Assembly (NCBI RefSeq): GCF_008365295.1
Contig: NZ_CP043505.1
Location: forward strand, 1,612,001 to 1,676,000
Reading direction: 5' to 3'
DNA length: 64,000 nt
From: Agromyces intestinalis
Lineage (GTDB): Bacteria; Actinomycetota; Actinomycetes; Actinomycetales; Microbacteriaceae
In this document: piece after piece, positions 1-62,369 of the stretch
Layout: each line of letters starts with the position of its first letter
Numbering within the stretch: position 1 is the stretch's first letter
Made by a program: the position numbers and the translations under genes
The notes under the pieces: generated by a model
Databases searched by the model: none
Told to the model about the DNA's origin: nothing
What the model saw: only the letters and a program-made list of their open reading frames with translations

Positions 1-442
1 CGAAGGCGGTCACATGGGATGCCTCGCTGAAGCCCACGTGCAGTTGGGTGATCTGCGGATGCTGCGGCGAGTCCTCGATGTGCGCGACCGCGATGTCGTC
101 GCCGCGGAAGACGGTGAGGTAGGCAGGCGCATGCGCGTCGTCGTGCACCGTGCGCAGTGCCGCCCGCACCGGCGGGGTCACGACGAGCTGCGCTTGCACC
201 GATCGGCCGAGCCGATCGACCGCGCGGCCCAGGATGTACCGGTGCTCGTCGGGCTGGCGGCCGATGTAGTCGGCGGCGTGCAGGGTCTGCAGCAGCCGGT
301 ACGTCGTCGCCTGCCCGAGCCCCAGGCGCTCGGCCACCTCGGCGGCGGTCAGGCCCGACGGCGAGTCCCCGATCGCGTCGAGCACGCGCAGCACACGCGA
401 CACCGACTGGAGGCCGGTGTCCGCGCTGCCCTGCGACGTCAT
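1..442 (-). CDS. IclR-family transcriptional regulator (3' part missing)
   Basis: The reading frame on the minus strand starts at the ATG at 442 and runs off the window edge, so only about 147 residues are visible. The N-terminal 70 residues form a winged helix-turn-helix (SVSRVLRVLDAIGDSPSGLT, then AAEVAERLGLGQATTYRLLQ), followed by the start of the IclR effector-binding domain (YILGRAVDRLGRSVQAQL). IclR proteins bind a small carbon metabolite and repress or activate catabolic genes; the target is not visible here. A TAGACT -10 box (450-455) sits 7 nt before the ATG, so the mRNA is probably leaderless. Family assignment is firm, the ligand unknown. Confidence 0.88.
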   Translation of the reverse strand, partial: MTSQGSADTGLQSVSRVLRVLDAIGDSPSGLTAAEVAERLGLGQATTYRLLQTLHAADYIGRQPDEHRYILGRAVDRLGRSVQAQLVVTPPVRAALRTVHDDAHAPAYLTVFRGDDIAVAHIEDSPQHPQITQLHVGFSEASHVTAF

Positions 443-578
443 GCCGCCGAGTCTAGGCATCTCGTGCGGCCGTGTCCGCACCCGTTTCGCACATCGTGCG
501 AATCGGGGTCGCGGAGGTCGCGGCATCCGATCGAACCTGACTCCCGACCATCCCCCGGAGTACATGGAGGTACCCCCG

Positions 579-1154
579 ATGTCCAAGATCCTCATCATCA
601 CCGGCGACGCGGCCGAGACGCTCGAGGTCTTCTACCCGTACCACCGCCTGCAGGAGGCCGGGTACGAGGTGCACCTCGGCGCACCGGCCAAGCGCAAGCT
701 GCAGTTCGTCGTGCACGACTTCGTCGACGGATTCGACACCTACACCGAGAAGCTCGGCCACACGTGGGACGCCGACATCGCGCTCGCCGACGTCGACCCG
801 GCCGACTACGTCGCCATCGTGGTGCCCGGCGGCCGCGCCCCCGAGTACCTGCGCAACAACGAGGACGCCAAGCGCATCGTCCGCTACTTCGCCGCACAGG
901 ACGCGCCGATCGCCGCGACCTGCCACGGCCCGCTGCTGCTGGGCGCCGCGGGCGTGCTCGAGGGCCGCACCTCGAGTGCATACCCCGAGCTCGCGATCGA
1001 CGTCGAGACGGCCGGCGGCGTCTTCGAGAACGGCGGCGGAGTCGTCGACGGGGCGCTCGTCACCGCCCGCGCCTGGCCCGACAACGGCACCTGGATGAAG
1101 GCGTTCCTCGAGGTGCTCGCCGCCCACGAGGCATCCGCCGCCGAAGCCGCCTGA
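579..1154 (+). CDS. DJ-1/PfpI family protein
   Basis: A 191-residue single-domain protein of the DJ-1/PfpI class I glutamine amidotransferase-like fold. It starts MSKILIITGDAAETLEVFYP and carries the nucleophile elbow AATCHGPLLL with Cys115 as the predicted reactive residue, followed by a class-typical GGVFENGGGVVDGALVTAR strand. Family members act as proteases, deglycases or hydratases, so no specific reaction can be assigned. The start at 579 was chosen because GGAGG (566-570) lies 8 nt upstream; an in-frame ATG at 564 overlaps that site. It is divergent from the IclR gene and convergent with the DUF1707 gene. Confidence 0.85.
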   Translation: MSKILIITGDAAETLEVFYPYHRLQEAGYEVHLGAPAKRKLQFVVHDFVDGFDTYTEKLGHTWDADIALADVDPADYVAIVVPGGRAPEYLRNNEDAKRIVRYFAAQDAPIAATCHGPLLLGAAGVLEGRTSSAYPELAIDVETAGGVFENGGGVVDGALVTARAWPDNGTWMKAFLEVLAAHEASAAEAA

Positions 1155-1176
1155 CCGCGACCGGCAGCGCGGGCGG

Positions 1177-1620
1177 TCAGCGCCGCCCGCGCTGCTGCGA
1201 CGCCGGTCCGTAGATGATGACGCCCGCGATCGGCACGAGCAGGAAGAACAGCCACGACCACGCCCAACCGCCCCACGCGAACCCGGCGATGAAGAACAGG
1301 CCGAGGGCGAGGAACGGCACGAACGCCATGATCGTCGCGCCCCACCCGCCGCCGAGGGCGCGGCTGGAGCCCCAGTTGTCGTCGGCCGGCCCCGACCCGG
1401 CGCGGCCTCCGCCCGCGCTGACCGAGCGCGGCAGGTCGGAGAACAGCGGTGCGAGGTCGCCCCAGGTGATCGCGCTGCGGGCGGAGGCCACGCGTTCCTC
1501 GAACTCGACCGGGCTCAGCCGCCCCTCCTCCCGTGCCTGGGTGAGCGCGCCGACTGCGGCGTCTCGGTCGGCGTTGCCGATGCGTTCGGACGGGCGGACG
1601 GGATTCGCGAAATCGACCAT
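1177..1620 (-). CDS. DUF1707 (SHOCT-like) domain membrane protein
   Basis: A 147-residue protein with an N-terminal DUF1707 domain (residues about 8-60, including RIGNADRDAAVGALTQAREE and RLSPVEFEERVASARSA). A Gly-rich linker follows, then two hydrophobic segments (about 95-115 and 118-138) predicted to span the membrane, and a short basic tail. DUF1707 occurs widely in actinobacteria on the cytoplasmic side of small membrane proteins; its role is unknown. A run of purines (GGGGGA) just before the ATG at 1620 serves as ribosome binding site. Its 5' end is 66 bp from the divergent NYN gene. Confidence 0.85.
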   Translation of the reverse strand: MVDFANPVRPSERIGNADRDAAVGALTQAREEGRLSPVEFEERVASARSAITWGDLAPLFSDLPRSVSAGGGRAGSGPADDNWGSSRALGGGWGATIMAFVPFLALGLFFIAGFAWGGWAWSWLFFLLVPIAGVIIYGPASQQRGRR

Positions 1621-1685
1621 TCCCCCAGCATGCTCGGCGACCGCCCGCTACGGAAGGCCCGCCGACCAGCGGGTAGGCTCGGAGG

Positions 1686-2723
1686 ATGGCAAGCGCAGAA
1701 CCCCGGGTCGCGCTCTACTTCGACTTCGACAACATCGTCATCTCCAGATACGACCAGCTTCACGGCGACGGCGCGTACCGCAAGGACACCTCCCGCTCCA
1801 AGACGCCCTCGGCGGGCACCAAGACCGCCGAACGGCTCGTCGAGGCGACCGTCGACGTCGACGCGGTACTCGACTTCGCGGCGACGTTCGGCACCATCGC
1901 GCTCGCTCGCGCATACGCCGACTGGTCGACACCGGTCAACGCGAGCTACCGCGGGCAGCTCATCGACCGCGCGGTCGACCTGGTGCAGCTGTTCCCGCTG
2001 TCAGCCACCAAGAACGGCGCCGACATCCGGCTCGCGGTCGACGCGGTGGAAGACCTGTTCCGTCTCGACGATCTCACGCACATCGTGATCGTCGCCGGCG
2101 ACAGCGACTACGTCGCCCTCGCGCAGAAGGCCAAACGCCTCGGGCGCTACGTCGTGGGCATCGGCGTCGCTGGCGGCACGAGCCGGGCGCTCACCGCCTC
2201 GTGCGACGAATACGCCGACTACGACGCGCTGCTCACGACGGATGCCTCGGTCGACGATGACGAAACGGATGCTCCGCCGGCCGCGCAGGCGGCGCCCGCC
2301 ACGCCGCCCGCGAAGTCATCGCGAGGTCGCGGGCGCCGGGCGACGTCCGAGACGGTGAAGCCCGAGGCATCCGATACCTCCGAGGCATCCGACGCGTCCG
2401 CGCAGGCCGACGCGCCCGAACCGCCCAAGGCCGCCGGTCTCGCGGTCGCGTTCCAGCCACCGGTCGCGGCCGGCGAGTCGAACCCGCCGTCGCGCAACCC
2501 CGGCCGGCTGCTGCTGAAGGCGCTCGAGCTGCTGCGCGCGAAGAACGACGAGGAGTGGCAGCCGTCGGGCTCGGTGAAGAACCAGATGCTGCGTATGGAT
2601 CCGTCGTTCCAGGAGCGCCGGCTCGGGTTCGCGTCGTTCACCGAGTTCCTCAAGTCGCGCGGCGGCGTCGTCGAGCTCGACGAACAGGCGAACCGCATCC
2701 GGCTCCGCCCGAAGAAGCCCTGA
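1686..2723 (+). CDS. NYN-domain (PIN-like) ribonuclease with C-terminal LOTUS/OST-HTH domain
   Basis: A 345-residue protein. Residues 1-180 form an NYN domain: ALYFDFDNIVISRYDQ supplies the first acidic cluster, and IVIVAGDSDYVALAQKAKRL holds the conserved GDSDY motif expected in a metal-dependent nuclease. A Pro/Ala/Glu/Ser-rich linker of about 80 residues follows. The last 75 residues (LLLKALELLRAKNDEEWQPS to the end) resemble an OST-HTH/LOTUS domain, a fold that binds structured or G-rich RNA. The combination suggests RNA processing or turnover, but the substrate is unknown. TAGGCT at 1674-1679 lies 6 nt before the ATG, indicating a leaderless transcript. Confidence 0.85.
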   Translation: MASAEPRVALYFDFDNIVISRYDQLHGDGAYRKDTSRSKTPSAGTKTAERLVEATVDVDAVLDFAATFGTIALARAYADWSTPVNASYRGQLIDRAVDLVQLFPLSATKNGADIRLAVDAVEDLFRLDDLTHIVIVAGDSDYVALAQKAKRLGRYVVGIGVAGGTSRALTASCDEYADYDALLTTDASVDDDETDAPPAAQAAPATPPAKSSRGRGRRATSETVKPEASDTSEASDASAQADAPEPPKAAGLAVAFQPPVAAGESNPPSRNPGRLLLKALELLRAKNDEEWQPSGSVKNQMLRMDPSFQERRLGFASFTEFLKSRGGVVELDEQANRIRLRPKKP

Positions 2724-2760
2724 CCCCGGCGCGCGCGCCCGCGTGCGCCCGCCACTTCTC

Positions 2761-2820
2761 CCGTTTGGACGCGATTCGGCGCCGGCACCCCGACCCACCC
2801 GCCGAAACTCGTCCAAACGG
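2761..2820. repeat. Intergenic palindrome, family A, copy 1
   Basis: Two 21-nt arms (2761-2781 and 2800-2820) pair at 19 of 21 positions around an 18-nt loop. The arm word TTTGGACGCGATTCGGC recurs at 47.2, 48.3 and 53.9 kb. It lies between the convergent 3' ends of the NYN gene and gdhA, so here it could act as a bidirectional terminator; there is no U-tract. Confidence 0.85.
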
Positions 2821-2869
2821 CGATGACCGAGGCCGAGGCCGCCGGGCGCGCGAGCGGAGCGCGGGCGCG

Positions 2870-4384
<1,515 letters not shown>

Positions 4385-4416
4385 TCACCCTAACCCATGT
4401 GAACTCGGTGTTTCCT

Positions 4417-4461
4417 GTGGTCTGACCACTTCGATACCCCGTGCTACTGTGGTCTGACCAC
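4417..4461 (+). promoter_or_regulatory. Twin LldR/FadR-type operators over the lld promoter
   Basis: Two identical 13-bp palindromes GTGGTCTGACCAC lie at 4417-4429 and 4449-4461, 32 bp apart centre to centre (about three helical turns). They contain TGGTNNNACCA, the core recognised by FadR-subfamily GntR regulators such as LldR. A possible -35 (CTGACC, 4422-4427) and -10 (TACTGT, 4445-4450) overlap the two sites, so bound dimers would block transcription of the downstream regulator and lldD. Confidence 0.8.
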
Positions 4462-4484
4462 ATCCGCACCGCCGAGGGGGCACG

Positions 4485-5288
4485 ATGGCGCGCACCGCCG
4501 CATACGAACGGCCCTCGGCGACGCCGCGCGCGTGGCAGGCCGTGCTCGAGCACATCGAGGCGCAATTGCTCTCGGGCGAGCTCGCTGCCGGCGACCGGCT
4601 GCCCGGCGAACGCCAGCTCTCGACCGACCTCGGCGTCGGCCGATCGAGCGTGCGCGAGGCGCTGCGCGTGCTCGAGGCGATGGGGCTCGTGCGCACCGCC
4701 ACCGGGTCAGGCCCCACCGCCGGCGCCATCATCGTCGCCACCCCCGCCGGCGCGATGGGCGCGCTCATGCGGCTGCAGGTCGCCGCCCGCGGGTTCCCGG
4801 TCGCCGACATCGTGCGCACACGGCTCGTGCTCGAGGCATCCGTCGTGGAAGAGCTCGCCGGGGCCGACCCCGTGCCCTCCCTCGCCGAACTGACCCGTCT
4901 GCTCGATGCGATGGACGCACGCGACCTCGCCCCCGACGACTTCCTCGCGCTCGACGCCGCGTTCCACCTGGGACTCGCCGAGGCATCCGGCAACCAGGTG
5001 ATCGCCGCCACCATGGCCGGCCTGCGCAGTGGCATCGAAGGGTACGCGCGAGCCGGCGTCGCCCGGCTCGCCGACTGGGGCGCGACCTCGGCGCGGCTGC
5101 GACACGAGCATCGGGGCGTGCTCGAGGCGATCCGCGCATCGGATGCCACGCTGGCGCGCACCCTCATCCGCGACCACATCGCCGGCTACTACGCCGAGAC
5201 GCTGGCCGAGACATCCGCTCCCCCGACCGCCCGGCCGGCCGCTCCGATCCCCGCTCCCCCCGTTTCGAAGGAGATCCGCTCATGGTGA
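4485..5288 (+). CDS. lldR: FadR/GntR-family regulator of lactate utilisation (LldR-like)
   Basis: A 267-residue FadR-type GntR repressor. Residues 10-75 form the winged helix ([20 protein letters not shown], then [13 protein letters not shown]); the rest is an all-helical FCD ligand domain ([20 protein letters not shown]). The two operators upstream and the lactate dehydrogenase gene, whose ATG at 5282 overlaps this stop codon, indicate autoregulation and control of lldD with lactate as probable inducer. GAGGGGG at 4474-4480 precedes the ATG. The role is inferred from context; the subfamily is clear. Confidence 0.86.
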
Positions 5289-6685
5289 AGCGCCAGTTCC
5301 CGAACCCGCGCGACGTGTTCGAACTCATGCAGTTCAAACGCCCCACCTGGAACGCCACCGATCGCCGCCTGGCCCAGGCGCTCACGATCGCCGACCTGCG
5401 CACGATCGCGAAGCGCCGCACCCCGAAGGCCGCGTTCGACTACACCGAGGGCGCCGCCGAGGGCGAACTGTCGCTCGCGCGTGCTCGCCAGGCGTTCGAG
5501 GACGTCGAGTTCCACCCGTCGATCCTGCGGAGCGTGCCCGTGGTCGACACGTCCACGACGGTGCTCGACGGGCCCAGCGCGCTGCCGTTCGGCATCGCGC
5601 CCACCGGGTTCACGCGCCTCATGCAGACCGAGGGCGAGATCGCCGGGGCCGGCGCAGCGGGTGCGGCAGGCATCCCGTTCACGCTGTCGACCCTCGGCAC
5701 CACCTCCATCGAGAATGTGAAGGCCGCGAACCCGACCGGGCGCAACTGGTTCCAGCTCTACGTCATGCGCCGGCGCGAGATCTCGTACGATCTCGTGCGC
5801 CGCGCCGAGGCCGCCGGGTTCGACACGATCTTCTTCACCGTCGACACGCCCGTCGCCGGCGCGCGGCTGCGCGACAAGCGCAACGGGTTCTCGATCCCGC
5901 CGCAGCTCACGCCCGCGACCGTCATCAACGCGATCCCGCGGCCCGAATGGTGGATCAACTTCCTCACCACCCCCAAGCTCGAATTCGCGTCGCTGTCCTC
6001 CACCGGCGGCACCGTCGGCGAACTGCTCGACGCCGCCATGGACCCGACCATCTCGTTCGACGACCTCGACATCATCCGCTCGATGTGGAACGGCAAGATC
6101 GTCGTCAAGGGCGTGCAGACCATCGCCGACGCCCGCGCCCTCGCCGACCGCGGCGTCGACGGCATCGTGCTCTCGAACCACGGCGGCCGCCAGCTCGACC
6201 GGGCGCCGATCCCGTTCCACCTGCTGCCCGACGTGGCGCGCGAGGTCGGGCGCGACCTCACCGTCATGATCGACACCGGCATCATGAACGGCGCCGACAT
6301 CGTGGCATCCATCGCGCTCGGAGCCGACTTCACCCTCATCGGCCGCGCCTACCTCTACGGCCTCATGGCCGGCGGGCGCCGCGGCGTCGACCGCACCATC
6401 GAGATCCTGCGCGGAGAGATCGAGCGCACCATGAAGCTGCTCGAGGTCGCGACCCTCGACGAGCTCGGCCCCCAGCACGTCACGCAGCTCACCCGCCTGC
6501 AGCCCATTCGTCGCGAAGTGGCGGATGCCGCGGAGCGCGCCGCGGCGACCCCGAAGCCGCGCGGCTCGCGGGCGGGTGCGTCTTCTGCTTCCGCTTCCGC
6601 GAAGCCGGCGGCGGCCAAAGCGGTGGCGGCGGCCAAACCGGCGGCGGCCAAGCCGGCGGCGCGCAGGGCGACCCCGAAGGCCTGA
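5282..6685 (+). CDS. lldD: FMN-dependent alpha-hydroxy-acid (L-lactate) dehydrogenase with Ala/Lys-rich tail
   Basis: A 467-residue member of the FMN-dependent 2-hydroxyacid dehydrogenase family, oxidising L-lactate to pyruvate. It matches the LldD2 type known in actinobacteria ([19 protein letters not shown]-terminus; [20 protein letters not shown]). The catalytic His and Arg lie in [13 protein letters not shown], and FMN-binding segments [20 protein letters not shown] and [13 protein letters not shown] are present. The enzyme domain ends near residue 415; the last 50 residues are a low-complexity Ala/Lys/Pro tail with repeated PAAAK units, unusual for the family. It is translationally coupled to lldR. 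Confidence 0.93.
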
Positions 6686-26830: not shown

Positions 26831-27031
26831 CCCCGCCCGCCCCCCCTCCCTCCCCCTCCCGTCCCTCCCCTCCCCCCGCTCCTCACGAACAAGGTCGATT
26901 TGTGCGAATGAGGGCGGCTTGCGCCATCCTCAGTCGCACAAATCGACCTTGTTCGCGCGTGGAGCGGGGGGCGGGAGGGGGGCGGAGGGGCGGGGGGGGC
27001 GGGGCGGGCGGGAGGGGGCGGGGCGGGGGGG
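26823..27031. repeat. Giant palindrome: family B core with C-rich and G-rich outer arms
   Basis: The core is a perfect 22-bp inverted repeat (26886-26907 and 26934-26955) containing AAGGTCGATTTGTGCGA around a 26-nt loop. Outside it, about 55 nt of C-runs on the left (26826-26880) face about 70 nt of G-runs on the right (26961-27031), so most of the 200-bp gap could fold into one hairpin; the G-rich strand also fits a G-quadruplex. It lies between the convergent ends of the kinase gene and putA. Confidence 0.85.
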
Positions 27032-32646: not shown

Positions 32647-32663
32647 CCAGCTCACACTCCCCT

Positions 32664-32720
32664 GCCGGGGCCGCTTGTGGTCGCTTCCGCGTGTTGCGGG
32701 CGACCACAAGCGACCCCGGC
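32664..32720. repeat. Intergenic palindrome, family D, copy 1
   Basis: Arms at 32664-32684 and 32700-32720 pair at 20 of 21 positions around a 15-nt loop; the right arm contains CGACCACAAGCGACCCCGG. It lies between the convergent lipoprotein and LAxTG-protein genes. A second copy stands on the other side of the LAxTG gene at 35.8 kb. Confidence 0.85.
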
Positions 32721-32743
32721 GGGGTGCTCTCGTCGAGGGAGCG

Positions 32744-35770: not shown

Positions 35771-35856
35771 TCGGGGTCGCTCGGGGTCGCTTCGGCGTTC
35801 CTCGGGGTCGCTTGTGGTCGCTTCGGCGGCCGGCGAGCGACAACGAGCGTCCCCGA
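35771..35856. repeat. Palindrome family D, copy 2, with tandem left-arm words
   Basis: The left arm (35802-35823) and right arm (35835-35856) pair at about 18 of 22 positions. Two extra copies of CTCGGGGTCGCT precede it (35770-35795). It lies in the divergent gap of 312 bp between the LAxTG gene and the FAD-oxidoreductase gene; apart from this repeat and the promoter at 35708-35739 the gap holds nothing I recognise. Confidence 0.78.
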
Positions 35857-45899: not shown

Positions 45900-47036
45900 C
45901 TACTCGACCGGTTCGCGTGCCGGAACCTCGCGCTGATCGACGCCGTTGTACACCGACAGCGGGCGGATCAACGCGTTCGAGGCGCGCTGCTCCATGATGT
46001 GCGCCGTCCAGCCGACGACGCGCGAGGCGACGAAGATCGGCGTGAACAGCTCGGTGTCGAACCCGATCAGGTGGTAAGCCGGCCCCGACGGGTAGTCGAG
46101 GTTCGGGTGGATGCCCTTGCGCGCGACGAACTCGTCGGCGAGCGCGTTGTACAGGTCGAGGATGTCGGGACGCTCGTAGTAGCCGACCAGGCTGTCGAGC
46201 GCCGTCTTCATGGTCGGCACGCGCGAGTCGCCGTGCTTGTAGACCCGGTGCCCGAAGCCCATGATCTTGCGCTTCTGGGCGAGCGCGTCGTCGAGCCAGG
46301 CCGACACGTTGGCCGCCTCGCCGATCTCGTCGAACGTGTGCATGACCGCTTCGTTCGCGCCGCCGTGCAGCGGACCCTTGAGGGCGGCGATCGCGCCGAC
46401 GACCGCCGAGTGCAGGTCGCTCAACGTGCTCGTGATCACGCGCGCGGTGAACGTCGAGGCGTTGAACGAGTGCTCGGCGTACAGGATCATCGACACGTCG
46501 AACGCGTCGACCACCGGCAGCTCGGGCACTTCGTCGAACGTCATGAACAGGAAGTTCGCCGAGTAGCCGAGATCGTCGCGCGGTTCGACCAGGTCGAGCC
46601 CTCGCCTGCGGCGCTGGTCGTACGCGACAACGGCCGGGATCGCCGCGAACAGGCGCTTCGCCTTGCGCAGTTCGGCCTCTGGCGAGTCATCCGCCGCTTC
46701 GTCGTCGCGAGCGCCGATCGCACTGACCGCCGTACGCACGACGTCCATCGGATGCGCGGTCGTCGGCAGCTCGTCGATCACGCGCTTGACCACCGGATCG
46801 AGGTGCCGGTGCGCCCGCTCGACCTGCTCGAACTCGGCGAGCTCCTCGTCGTTCGGCAGCTCGCCGTGCCACAGCAGGTAGGCGACCTCTTCGAAGGTGA
46901 CGGCCGCGGCGAGATCCTGCACGGGGTACCCGCGGTACAGCAGCGAATTGGTCTCGGGGTTGACCTTCGAGATCGCGGTGTAGTCGACCGGAACCCCGGC
47001 CAGACCCTTGTAGATCTCGGGCTGCTGATCGCTCAT
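45900..47036 (-). CDS. prpC: 2-methylcitrate synthase / citrate synthase
   Basis: A 378-residue type-II-short citrate synthase. Catalytic His residues lie in LKGPLHGGANEAVM and KIMGFGHRVYKHGDSRVP, the Asp in YHLIGFDTELFTPIFVASRV. Length and the IYKGLAGVPVDYTAISKVNP start fit the bifunctional PrpC class, which condenses propionyl-CoA (or acetyl-CoA) with oxaloacetate. prpB and prpD lie 1.4-3.9 kb upstream on the same strand. GAGGAG precedes the ATG at 47036, and TAGGCT (complement of 47083-47088) is a likely own promoter with a leader of about 40 nt, consistent with separation from prpDB. Confidence 0.93.
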   Translation of the reverse strand: MSDQQPEIYKGLAGVPVDYTAISKVNPETNSLLYRGYPVQDLAAAVTFEEVAYLLWHGELPNDEELAEFEQVERAHRHLDPVVKRVIDELPTTAHPMDVVRTAVSAIGARDDEAADDSPEAELRKAKRLFAAIPAVVAYDQRRRRGLDLVEPRDDLGYSANFLFMTFDEVPELPVVDAFDVSMILYAEHSFNASTFTARVITSTLSDLHSAVVGAIAALKGPLHGGANEAVMHTFDEIGEAANVSAWLDDALAQKRKIMGFGHRVYKHGDSRVPTMKTALDSLVGYYERPDILDLYNALADEFVARKGIHPNLDYPSGPAYHLIGFDTELFTPIFVASRVVGWTAHIMEQRASNALIRPLSVYNGVDQREVPAREPVE

Positions 47037-47180
47037 CGTGCTCCTCGTGGGTCGGCGGCCGCCCCAGCGCGACCGCCCATCCAGCCTAGCCATCCCCTCC
47101 GTCGCCGAAGCGTTCGCGCTGCCACTCACCGGAAGCGCGGCCGCCGCGGCCCGCCCGCCACCCACCACCCACCCACGACG

Positions 47181-47240
47181 CCGATTGGACGCGATTCGGC
47201 CGGGGTGCGGGGCGGCGGGCGCCGAATCGCGTCCGAACGG
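47181..47240. repeat. Intergenic palindrome, family A, copy 2
   Basis: Arms at 47181-47200 and 47221-47240 pair at 18 of 20 positions around a 20-nt loop; the left arm contains TTGGACGCGATTCGGC. It lies in the 314-bp divergent gap between prpC and the DUF559 gene. Besides this element and the prpC promoter the gap holds nothing I recognise. Confidence 0.85.
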
Positions 47241-47350
47241 CGAAGCGGCTCGGACGCGAGTACTCCTCCCCTGCGCGCAAGCGCCAGGCGCAGTGCACCG
47301 TTCAGGGGCATCCGTGCCTCGGAGCCGTCGCTCGCGGACAAGCTGGCGCG

Positions 47351-48274
47351 GTGCCATCGCCGCAACCGCTGCCCTCCCCGCTCCGCGGGCGCGTCTTCAC
47401 CGTGGGATCCGCCCTCGACATCGGCGTCGGCCGCGATCGGCTCGACCGATCGGACCTGGCTGCGCCGTTCGGCGGCGTGCGGGCGCCGGCGGCGTTCTCA
47501 GACGACTTCCACACCCGCTGCGAAGCGGCGCTGCTCGTCTCGGGCCCGGAGGCCGTGCTCTGCGGCCCGACCTCCGCCGCGCTGTTCGGCCTCCCGTTGC
47601 CGGCGCGGCACCGGCCGGGCCCGCTCACGCCGATCCACCTCGCACTTCCTGCGGGAAGCCGCGCCGTTCGTCGTGCCGGCATCACCGGCTCAGTGCTGCA
47701 ATTGCCACCCCATCACGTCACGCGCTGGTTGCACCTGGCGACGACCCGCCCCGCACGCACCTGGTGCGATCTCGCCACGCGCCTCAGCCTGCCCGAGCTG
47801 GTCGCGGCGGGCGACCGGATGCTCCGCCTCCGCCTGTGCACCACCGACGAGCTCGCGCGGGTGGCCGACGAACGCGCCGATCGACGAGGCATCCGGGTGA
47901 TCCGCGAGGCCCTCGACCTGCTCGATCCCGCGTCAGAATCGCCGAAGGAGTCGGAGCTGCGGGTGCTGGTGGTGCGCGCCGGGCTGCCGGCACCGCGGGC
48001 GAACGCCGAGATCCGCGACGAGCACGGGCGGTTCGTCGCGCGCGTCGACCTGCTGTTCGAGGAGTACGGCGAGATCCTCGAGTACCACGGCGACCACCAC
48101 CGCACCGATCGACGGCAGTGGCGGCGCGACCGCACCCGCGAGTCCGAACTCGAGTCGCTCGGCCTGCACGTGACCGAGGTCGCCGCCGACGACCTCCGCG
48201 ATCCGCCTGCGCTCCTGCGCCGAATCGCGAGGAACCTCGCCCGCCGGGGATGGCGTGGCACCCTGCGGCTCTGA
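47351..48274 (+). CDS. DUF559-type (VSR/PD-(D/E)XK-like) endonuclease-domain protein
   Basis: A 307-residue protein. The N-terminal two thirds resemble the abortive-infection-antitoxin-like proteins common in actinobacteria (ALLVSGPEAVLCGPTSAALF; ARTWCDLATRLSLPELVAAG). The C-terminal 100 residues form a DUF559/VSR-like nuclease domain: SPKESELRVLVVRAGLP with the helical Glu, then RVDLLFEEYGEILEYHGDHH and QWRRDRTRESELESLGLHV. Whether it cuts DNA is unknown. It is oriented against prpB and prpC, separates them, and is bracketed by two family A palindromes, which suggests later insertion. No ribosome-binding site precedes the GTG. Confidence 0.8.
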   Translation: MPSPQPLPSPLRGRVFTVGSALDIGVGRDRLDRSDLAAPFGGVRAPAAFSDDFHTRCEAALLVSGPEAVLCGPTSAALFGLPLPARHRPGPLTPIHLALPAGSRAVRRAGITGSVLQLPPHHVTRWLHLATTRPARTWCDLATRLSLPELVAAGDRMLRLRLCTTDELARVADERADRRGIRVIREALDLLDPASESPKESELRVLVVRAGLPAPRANAEIRDEHGRFVARVDLLFEEYGEILEYHGDHHRTDRRQWRRDRTRESELESLGLHVTEVAADDLRDPPALLRRIARNLARRGWRGTLRL

Positions 48275-48304
48275 CGCCCGCCCGCAGCGCCCGGTCTCCC
48301 CCAT

Positions 48305-48363
48305 CGTTTGGACGGGATTCGGCTGAGGCGAGTGCCGCCAGCCCGCCGAATCGCGTCCAAACG
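48305..48363. repeat. Intergenic palindrome, family A, copy 3
   Basis: Arms at 48305-48323 and 48345-48363 pair at 18 of 19 positions around a 21-nt loop (CGTTTGGACGGGATTCGGC on the left). It lies between the convergent ends of the DUF559 gene and prpB, completing the bracket around the DUF559 gene. Confidence 0.87.
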
Positions 48364-48395: not shown

Positions 48396-49295
48396 TCAGC
48401 GCGAGATGGTGAAGTTGAAGATCCCGGTGTCGAAGTGGTTGTAGCCCTCGTAGTCGACGAGGTCGTAGAGCTCGGCGCGGTGCTGCATCTCGCCGAGTTT
48501 GGCCTGCAACGATCCCTCGGCCGCCAGCTCGTCGAGTCCGCGCATCGCCGAGCCCATCGCGAGGCGCAGCAGCGACACGGGCCAGATGACGATGTTCATG
48601 CCGACATCGCGCAGCTGGTCGACCGTGAACAGCTCGCTCTTGCCGAACTCGGTCATGTTCGCCAGCAGCGGCACGTCCACGGCCGCCCGCACCGCCTCGA
48701 ACTCGGCGAGCGTCGCCATCGCCTCGGGGAAGATCGCGTCGGCGCCCGCATCGACGAGCGCCTTCGCTCGGTCGATCGCGGCGTCGAGCCCGTCGACCGC
48801 GCGGATATCGGTGCGCGCCATGATCAGGAAGTTCGGGTCGCGCCGCGCGTCGACTGCCGCGGCGATGCGCTGCAGCGCGGTGTGCTCATCGACGACCTGC
48901 TTGCCGTCGAGGTGCCCGCAGCGCTTCGGGTTCACCTGGTCTTCGATGTGCAGGCCGGCGAGGCCGGCGTCCTCGAGTTCCTGCACGGTGCGGGCGACGT
49001 TCATGGGCTCGCCGAACCCGGTGTCGGCGTCGATGATCGCGGGCAGTTCGGTCATCCGCGCGATCTGCCGACCGCGACCGGCGACCTCGCTGAGCGTCGT
49101 GAGCCCGATGTCGGGCAGCCCGAGATCGGCCGCGAGCACCGCACCCGACACGTATACGCCCTCGAACCCGCGCTGCTCGATGAGCCGTGCCGACAGCGGG
49201 TTGAACGCGCCGGGGAACCGCAGCAGCTCGCCCGTGGCGAGTCGCTCGCGGAACGCGCGCCGCTTCTCGTGCGCCGGGGTCTTCGCATACAGCAT
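48396..49295 (-). CDS. prpB: Methylisocitrate lyase
   Basis: A 299-residue PEP-mutase/isocitrate-lyase-family enzyme that splits 2-methylisocitrate to pyruvate and succinate. NPKRCGHLDGKQVVDEH holds the catalytic KRCGH motif, and PAIIDADTGFGEPMNVARTV the metal-binding loop. GAGGAGG 6 nt upstream of the ATG at 49295 sets the start. prpD ends 84 bp upstream in the same orientation, so prpDB form an operon, with prpC now separated by the DUF559 gene. Confidence 0.95.
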   Translation of the reverse strand: MLYAKTPAHEKRRAFRERLATGELLRFPGAFNPLSARLIEQRGFEGVYVSGAVLAADLGLPDIGLTTLSEVAGRGRQIARMTELPAIIDADTGFGEPMNVARTVQELEDAGLAGLHIEDQVNPKRCGHLDGKQVVDEHTALQRIAAAVDARRDPNFLIMARTDIRAVDGLDAAIDRAKALVDAGADAIFPEAMATLAEFEAVRAAVDVPLLANMTEFGKSELFTVDQLRDVGMNIVIWPVSLLRLAMGSAMRGLDELAAEGSLQAKLGEMQHRAELYDLVDYEGYNHFDTGIFNFTISR

Positions 49296-49379: not shown

Positions 49380-50915
49380 TCAGAACAACCCGGTCGGCAC
49401 CTCGGTCGCGGCCAGCACACCCGGTGCCGCCGTGAAGGTGAGGCCGCCGAGCTCGTCGGGCGAGAGCTCGGGCAGCCGCTGCGCGAGGTCGAGGAACCGC
49501 TCGATCTCGGCGGGCTCGAGCGCCCACTCGGCGAGTGTGCGGAACTTCTTCACGTAGTCGTCGCGACCGAACGGGCGGGCACCGAGCGGGTGCGCATCCG
49601 CGACCGCGATCTCGTCGACGATCTCGCCGCCGTCGGCGAGCTTGATCACCACGCGCCCGCCGAACGCCTTCTCGGCGATGTCGAGCGAGTGGTAGCGGCG
49701 CGTCCACTCGGGGTCTTCGACGGTGGTCACCTTCTTCCACAGCGCGATCGTGTCGGGCTGGTGCGCCCGCTCGGGCGAGTACGACGTCTCGTGGTTCCAG
49801 GCGCCGTCCTGCAGGGCGACGGTGAAGATGTACGGGATCGAGTGGTCGAGCGTCTCGCGCGAGGCATCGGGGTCGTACTTCTGCGGGTCGTTCGCGCCCG
49901 ATCCGATGACGTAGTGCGTGTGGTGCGACGTGTGCAGCGTGATCGACTCGACCAGGTCGGGGTTGATGATCAACGGATACGCGTCGTGCAGCTTGCGCGC
50001 CAGGTCGATCCAGGCCTGGGCCTGGTACTCGGCGGAGTGCTCCTTCGTGTAGGAGTCGAGGATGGCCCGCTTCGCTTCGCCCGCGTCGGGCAGCGGCACT
50101 TCGTAGGATGCCTCGGGGCCGCCGAGCAGCCACGCGATGACGCCGTCCTCGCCCTCGTAGATCGGCACCGGGCTGGTCTCGCCGCGCATCGCGCGGTCGA
50201 CGGCCTCGACGGCCATCTTGCCGGCGAACGCGGGCGCGTGCGCCTTCCAGGTCGAGATCTCGCCCTTGCGCGACTGGCGGGTCGCCGTGGTCGTGTGCAG
50301 CGCCTGCCCGATGGCCTGGAAGATCGTCTCTTGATCGAGGCCGAGCAGGGTGCCGATGCCGGCCGCAGCCGACGGCCCGAGGTGCGCGACGTGGTCGATC
50401 TTGTGCTGGTGCAGGCTGATGCCCTTGGCCAGGTCGATCTGGATCTCGTACCCGGTCGCGATGCCGCGCACGACGTCGCGCCCGGTGAGTCCGCGCGACG
50501 CAGCGAGGTGCTGCGCGACCGCGACGATCGGCGGGATGTTGTCGCCCGGGTGCGAGTACTCCGCCGCGAGGAACGTGTCGTGGAAGTCGAGCTCGCGCAC
50601 CGCGACCCCGTTGGCCCACGCCGCCCACTCGGGGCTGGTGCGTCGGGCCGCATCGGCGCCGAACACCGTCGCGCCGTCGCCGCCGATCGACACGGGGTGC
50701 GCGAGCGCCTGGCTGCGCGCCGACACGACCGGCTTCCGGGCGATGGATGCCGCGGCCACCGCCGCGTTGTCGATCACGCGGTTCACGACCATCTCGACCA
50801 CGTCGTCGTCGAGTTCGACGGGATCGGTCGCGAGCGCCGCGAGTTGCCAGGCGAGCTGGCCCTCGCGGGCGAGGTGCTCATCGCTTCGGTGGGTGCGCAC
50901 GTGGTGGGTCTTCAC
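49380..50915 (-). CDS. prpD: 2-methylcitrate dehydratase
   Basis: A 511-residue MmgE/PrpD-family enzyme that dehydrates 2-methylcitrate to 2-methylaconitate. Recognisable segments are [40 protein letters not shown], and [20 protein letters not shown], which match the long (about 500-residue) PrpD class. The GTG at 50915 is chosen because TACCGT (complement of 50923-50928) lies 7 nt upstream, the leaderless arrangement. First gene of the prpDB operon; divergent from sufS. No dedicated prp regulator gene is visible nearby. Confidence 0.94.
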
Positions 50916-53852: not shown

Positions 53853-53914
53853 GTCGATTGGACGCGATTCGGCACCCCTCCGCCCGAGCGTCCGCCGAAT
53901 CGCGTCCAATCGAC
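53853..53914. repeat. Intergenic palindrome, family A, copy 4 (perfect)
   Basis: Arms at 53853-53873 and 53894-53914 pair at all 21 positions around a 20-nt loop (left arm includes GATTGGACGCGATTCGGC). Additional flanking CGCCCCCG/CGGGGGCG words extend the stem. Unlike copies 1 and 3, it lies in a divergent gap between two promoters, so it is not simply a terminator. Confidence 0.88.
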
Positions 53915-62190: not shown

Positions 62191-62369
62191 TCGGCGAGTG
62201 TTTCCGTTCGCCGCCCGTCCGCCCGCCCGCCGCCCGTCGCCCGCCGCCCGTCCGCCCGCCCGCCCGTCGCCCGTCGCCCGTCGCCCGTCGCCCGTCGCCG
62301 AGTGTTTCCGTTCGCGCACGCTGTTCCCGTTCGTACGGAAACACGGTGCGCCAACGGAAACACTCGGCG
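62191..62369. repeat. Family C palindrome and GC-rich tandem words
   Basis: CGAGTGTTTCCGTTCG appears as a half copy at 62195-62210; after about 85 bp of tandem CCCGTCG/CCCGCCG words a full palindrome follows with arms 62296-62319 and 62346-62369 (23 of 24 pairs), whose loop carries two more TGTTTCCGT-like words. With the minisatellite at 62385-62559 it fills most of the 500-bp gap before the ABC operon. Confidence 0.83.

Follow-up and report, generated by a model that had tools for sequence, protein, structure and literature searches.

The closest described counterparts of the system reported here are the REPINs and their RAYT transposases. REPINs have short inverted arms around a diverse spacer, are extragenic, dispersed and species-specific, and belong to a single-copy enzyme gene that is flanked by the same repeat; a genome can hold several distinct pairs, and repeats are more numerous in enzyme-bearing genomes (PMC3116915, PMC8049555, PMC3733652). 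In addition, two protein families bear on the enzyme described below. The binding sites of AbiEi and Rv2827c, located upstream of their own genes, are 23-bp inverted repeats with 3 or 13 bp between them (PMC7319586), and the homing endonuclease I-Bth0305I binds as a dimer to a target of nearly 60 bp (PMC3943268).

Here we analysed a stretch of 64,000 nucleotides from Agromyces intestinalis (hereafter the window), in which a gene encoding a nuclease with an AbiEi-like part lies between two palindromes within the prp locus. We consider, with a probability of roughly 0.6, that the nuclease gene and the palindromes form one REPIN/RAYT-like system, with the transposase replaced by an AbiEi-EDxHD nuclease.

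The nuclease gene interrupts the prp locus

The genes prpD (MmgE/PrpD; 49380-50915), prpB (PEP mutase/ICL family; 48396-49295) and prpC (methylcitrate/citrate synthase; 45900-47036) are transcribed in this order on the minus strand, and a plus-strand gene encoding a nuclease of 307 residues (47351-48274) lies between prpB and prpC. The palindromes on its two sides belong to one family, termed family A. The 5' palindrome (47179-47242) has arms of 17-22 bp and a 20-nt spacer and leaves 108 bp to the start codon, and the 3' palindrome (48305-48363) is located 30 bp past the stop codon, between the convergent nuclease gene and prpB. These coordinates confirm the sequence-only reading of the window, according to which an opposite-strand nuclease-type gene with a family A palindrome on each side separates prpC from prpDB. 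No AbiEii toxin gene stands beside the nuclease gene in the prp locus, where its neighbours are prpC and prpB/prpD.

Among 40 prp loci examined in same-genus relatives, nine carry the nuclease gene at exactly this position. In most of the others prpC adjoins prpB or prpD, usually across a gap of about 30-180 bp, so that loci without the nuclease gene show closed-up prp genes. The earlier expectation that prp genes are normally contiguous is thus borne out in most same-genus relatives, rather than prpC standing apart from prpDB throughout the family. Most gene-bearing relatives have palindromes as well, the sequences of which are unlike those of the window and different in each species. The same prp position is also occupied in Leifsonia sp. 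Leaf264 and in Agromyces binzhouensis, ramosus, humi, tardus and luteolus.

A tree was built from 103 homologues, with some rows labelled as prp by score and neighbourhood (L105 is a putative prp-locus copy, and L035 a prp-locus copy that is unlabelled). Here the prp-locus copies group almost entirely in a single clade, and two further copies branch just outside it. L122, a homologue from outside the prp locus, groups with this clade. As the prp-locus copies are almost all of one clade, the gene has probably resided at the prp site since before the split of Agromyces and Leifsonia sp. Leaf264, and has been lost many times. As a test of self-homing, nuclease and PrpD distances were compared and showed a moderate correlation (rho 0.41, p 0.03). 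At the prp locus, mean identity is 53% for the nuclease versus 87% for PrpD.

Other changes are seen at the prp loci of relatives. The sister genome G045 (L052, about 300-6050, prpD-minus orientation) carries a different insert of ~5.7 kb at the same prpC/prpB boundary, with a two-component system, an ABC transporter and a membrane protease-like protein, and this boundary may therefore be an insertion hotspot. In L091 (G005) prpB is apparently in two pieces, corresponding to residues 1-195 and 219-299, and in L090 (G016) an extra small gene between the nuclease gene and prpB apparently encodes a secreted or anchored protein.

The protein joins an AbiEi-like part to an EDxHD nuclease domain

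The nuclease consists of an AbiEi-like N-terminal part and a C-terminal Vsr/EDxHD nuclease domain. The AbiEi resemblance extends over residues ~54-205, with weak PADLOC AbiEi matches, and the sole Pfam hint of the window protein is MTES_1575 (PF18741; E 0.006), which is below the cut-off. Matches at E<=0.01 among 22 homologues were to MTES_1575 in 18, to DUF559 in eight and to AbiEi_1 in three. DUF559 was rejected as the family name, as the window protein itself does not reach a match to it.

The AlphaFold2 model of the window protein (pLDDT 92.4, pTM 0.88) predicts a C-terminal domain with a fold similar to that of the catalytic domain of I-Bth0305I (Foldseek; PDB 3r3p, target TM-score 0.80, E 0.011), to which the sequence profile of the nuclease also points (E 0.005). 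Mitochondrial ribosome proteins in the top Foldseek rows were set aside owing to their low TM-scores, leaving I-Bth0305I as the best genuine match. The invariant residues E200, D233, E244, H250 and D260 fit the E-D-x-H-D pattern. The complete set is retained by 98 of the 103 homologues, so the predicted catalysis appears to be under selection despite the fast divergence of the protein.

Two palindrome families are dispersed in the host genome

With up to three mismatches allowed, the window contains nine occurrences of the 17-nt family A arm TTTGGACGCGATTCGGC, compared to 0.45 expected, and no shuffle reached nine. As single-stranded DNA, both nuclease-flanking palindromes fold much more favourably than their shuffled versions (z -4.05 and -7.17). 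Dispersed family A palindromes of the window lie at 2761-2820 and 53853-53914. Pattern searches, on which the genome-wide counts rest, gave 16 family A copies in the host genome (3.80 Mb), of which 14 are extragenic according to a crude gene call. The spacer measures 20 nt in 14 of the 16 copies with unrelated spacer sequences, and the arms show compensating changes; both the constant spacer and the compensating changes would be expected if the arms and their distance are recognised. The Rfam search of the palindromes found no family near threshold, and a reading as an RNA family was rejected.

A second nuclease gene of the host, a paralogue outside the window (G000 C1:1274090-1274995), has its own palindromes, termed family B, several of which stand on each side of it. 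The host genome holds about 38 family B copies, with 75 arm matches versus two for the reversed control, and two of these palindromes (32660-32724 and 35802-35856) lie in the window. Many dispersed palindrome copies are found between convergent genes.

Some family B copies form tandem arrays of regular copies that resemble REPIN clusters (G000 C1:2157279-2157690, C1:2719121-2719301 and C1:2658410-2658606). A truncated third host homologue (L003; G000 C1:3457675-3458091) has a 66-bp palindrome of a further sequence family near its end. Moreover, two palindromes of the window (26886-26955 and 62297-62368), both very strong, belong to other families, for which no nuclease partner was identified in the host genome.

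Nucleases and palindromes are paired across relatives

Palindromes were surveyed around 81 homologues in the host genus, Microbacterium, Leifsonia and Okibacterium at a score threshold of 12. Of these, 57 have a palindrome on the 5' side, 47 have one on the 3' side and 40 have both, compared to 4.7%, 14% and 0.6% (1/172), respectively, for 172 control genes of the same loci. The control genes were called crudely, as long ORFs that passed a codon-composition filter, but with so wide a difference this is of no consequence. About a fifth of the homologues (17/81) have no strong palindrome on either side, and the commonest feature is a 5' palindrome ~100 bp before the start codon. The association of nuclease and palindrome is solid. 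The layout also recurs in other families of the order: of 26 loci sampled order-wide, 13 are flanked by a palindrome on each side, several of these pairs being long, nearly perfect and matching.

The two palindromes of one locus match each other. The mean arm match score is 14.35 within loci versus 1.98 between loci, the summed within-locus score was equalled in none of 10,000 permutations, and the own partner ranks first in 32 of the 40 loci with palindromes on both sides. In addition, palindrome similarity rises with nuclease protein identity. The identities of the N- and C-terminal parts correlate equally with palindrome similarity, a comparison that favours neither as the reading domain. 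CGAG is found near the palindrome foot in 24 of 54 loci, versus 4.3 expected, and is possibly a conserved tag.

Each lineage has a palindrome family of its own. When 19 palindromes were joined as one query against 18 genomes, the result was essentially diagonal, each genome returning its own family. Among the matches listed (the stronger ones, from the best 24 candidates per genome, so that copy numbers are at least those seen), most of the 18 genomes have their own palindrome in many dispersed copies, with next to no copies of the remaining families. A few genomes have no dispersed copies among the matches listed; G008 and G080 gave two matches each, and dispersal is hence not universal; cross-matches between families occurred in Microbacterium genomes with nucleases 65-69% identical. 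The exact window palindrome is present in none of 59 other same-genus genomes, and the family A arm at two mismatches is at background level in all same-genus genomes searched except the sister genome. Within-locus matching, lineage specificity and dispersal are shown by these results, and the nuclease likely recognises its own palindrome.

Palindromes differ between the host and a sister genome

The sister genome G045, with flanks about 91-98% identical to those of the host, has no full-length nuclease homologue and serves as the one nuclease-less genome of the comparison. It has five family A palindromes, all at sites common to the host, whereas eight host family A sites have no palindrome there, including 53853-53914, for which the flanks were aligned on both sides. 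The palindrome at 53853-53914 is also absent from the more distant G032, which suggests that the host lineage gained it. The L005 and L011 sites differ between the host and G045 by about the length of a palindrome, and at the other sites the intergenic DNA differs more widely. Neither a target duplication nor a clean insertion boundary was seen at the compared sites of host and sister genomes.

Proposed mechanism and alternative explanations

AbiEi proteins bind paired inverted repeats and I-Bth0305I binds a long target as a dimer; by analogy, we propose that a dimer of the fused protein binds the arms and nicks or cuts the spacer or a hairpin. Two arms of ~20 bp with a spacer of 10-20 nt, ~58 bp in total, should fit an AbiEi-EDxHD dimer. 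In this model, two nuclease molecules would sit on one palindrome, each AbiEi-like part reading one arm of ~17-22 bp, and two EDxHD domains would thereby be placed over the spacer. Such an arrangement would explain why the arms are conserved in sequence but the spacer in length only. The palindrome would be nicked or cut, in the spacer or as a hairpin, and host repair would then give rise to new copies at extragenic sites. The 5' copy is probably also an operator that controls nuclease expression, and enzyme and palindrome would co-diverge to give each lineage its own pair. We infer binding, cutting, the causing of spread and autoregulation alike, and the weakest link is how a cut would lead to a further copy at another site. 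Cutting at 16-38 chromosomal copies would be hazardous, unless the enzyme nicks, works on hairpins or is kept under tight repression.

Part of these observations could be explained by regulation alone, with the palindromes as operators of an AbiEi-like autoregulator and its small regulon, and the nuclease domain put to another use by which the palindromes are not mobilised. AbiEi-family proteins indeed autoregulate via inverted repeats upstream of their own genes, and the commonest feature is a 5' palindrome at ~100 bp from the start codon. Nevertheless, we regard this explanation as unlikely, since over half of the loci have a palindrome beyond the stop codon, many dispersed copies lie between convergent genes, some copies form tandem arrays, and eight host sites are empty in the sister genome. 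Somewhat less probable still is that the palindromes are spread by replication slippage, template switching or another enzyme, with the nuclease a homing-type parasite settled between two of them. The nearest solved relative is a homing endonuclease, and slippage can make tandem arrays such as those seen. However, every lineage of the nuclease is paired with a palindrome family of its own that co-varies with the protein, the prp-locus copies largely form one clade instead of scattered re-insertions, and no Y1 transposase was found in 31 genomes of the genus.

The sequence-only reading had favoured a small cargo unit, in which two palindromes serve as the ends of a composite element that moves the nuclease gene. 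The palindrome-gene-palindrome layout, the empty and closed-up prp site of most relatives, and the grouping of L122 with the prp clade all speak for it, and as a recurring unit the arrangement is indeed found in some relatives. Its part as cargo of a palindrome-ended element found no support: the gene is present once per palindrome family and genome, its residency at the prp locus is clade-wide, so that it has remained in place, many sites have palindromes without the gene, and the target duplications anticipated at the junctions were not seen. We therefore consider a composite element very improbable. A reading as plain terminators of transcription, or as inverted repeats arising by chance in G+C-rich DNA between genes, has in its favour that 14% of the control genes have a 3' palindrome. 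It is countered by the strong enrichment over controls on both sides, the matched sequence, the fixed spacing and the dispersed members, and no Rfam family comes near threshold; the control comparison and the within-locus matching refute this reading, to which we assign almost no weight.

Our preferred reading thus remains a nuclease and its palindromes acting as one REPIN/RAYT-like system. Whether it extends to an order-wide class, in which AbiEi-EDxHD nucleases would recognise and spread cognate palindromes, with fast co-evolution, a private pair in each species and several pairs in some genomes, is a question on which our judgement is evenly balanced. The occurrence of own matched pairs in dozens of related bacteria suggests that a class of repeat-reading or repeat-spreading systems has so far escaped description. 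No published description of such nuclease-palindrome pairs was found in the open-access literature, the scope of the search (subscription papers and preprints lay outside it). If the reading is true, bacteria have a second, unrelated way of keeping and spreading short palindromic repeats besides the RAYT transposases, and have it in actinobacteria, the one tested genus of which is without such a transposase. A large set of proteins now annotated by a DUF559 or AbiEi domain only would thereby gain a likely partner. Moreover, the matched enzyme-palindrome pairs, from more than 50 loci, provide a natural data set on joint changes of specificity in a nuclease and its long DNA target.

Comparison with known systems

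Several known systems share single features with this one. Like I-Bth0305I, an EDxHD/Vsr-like homing endonuclease with a dimer target of ~60 bp in the literature, the window protein has the nuclease fold and the E-D-x-H-D residues; compared to EDxHD homing endonucleases, it lies outside introns and inteins, has an additional AbiEi-like part and is associated with dispersed palindromes, and its self-homing is putative. It resembles the AbiEi antitoxins of the AbiE type IV toxin-antitoxin systems in weak sequence matches, and relatives of these bind paired inverted repeats upstream. By contrast, the prp locus has no neighbouring AbiEii toxin gene, the protein is a nuclease fusion, and the palindromes are also 3' and dispersed. 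The C-terminal domain matches MTES_1575 or DUF559 of Pfam weakly in most homologues, but these families merely define domains, for which no repeat partner has been described. A composite transposon differs in that no target-site duplications were seen at the compared sites, nor were mobile whole units encountered.

The closest likeness is to REPIN/RAYT. Family A has conserved inverted arms and a variable spacer and is extragenic and dispersed, and the nuclease gene is flanked by its own repeat family. However, the enzyme has an AbiEi-EDxHD nuclease fold instead of that of a Y1 HuH transposase. The Y1 transposase (PF01797) was found in none of 31 genomes of the genus, with control genomes positive, and Y1/RAYT-driven repeats were rejected on this ground. 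The GTAG foot is likewise seen at none of 54 loci, CGAG standing near the foot at 24 of them, and copies number in the tens rather than the hundreds. Altogether, the system works like REPIN/RAYT but is not a member of it. What sets it apart is the pairing of this enzyme with such a repeat, and if the definition of a REPtron were widened to any enzyme, the system would count as a further form of REPtron.
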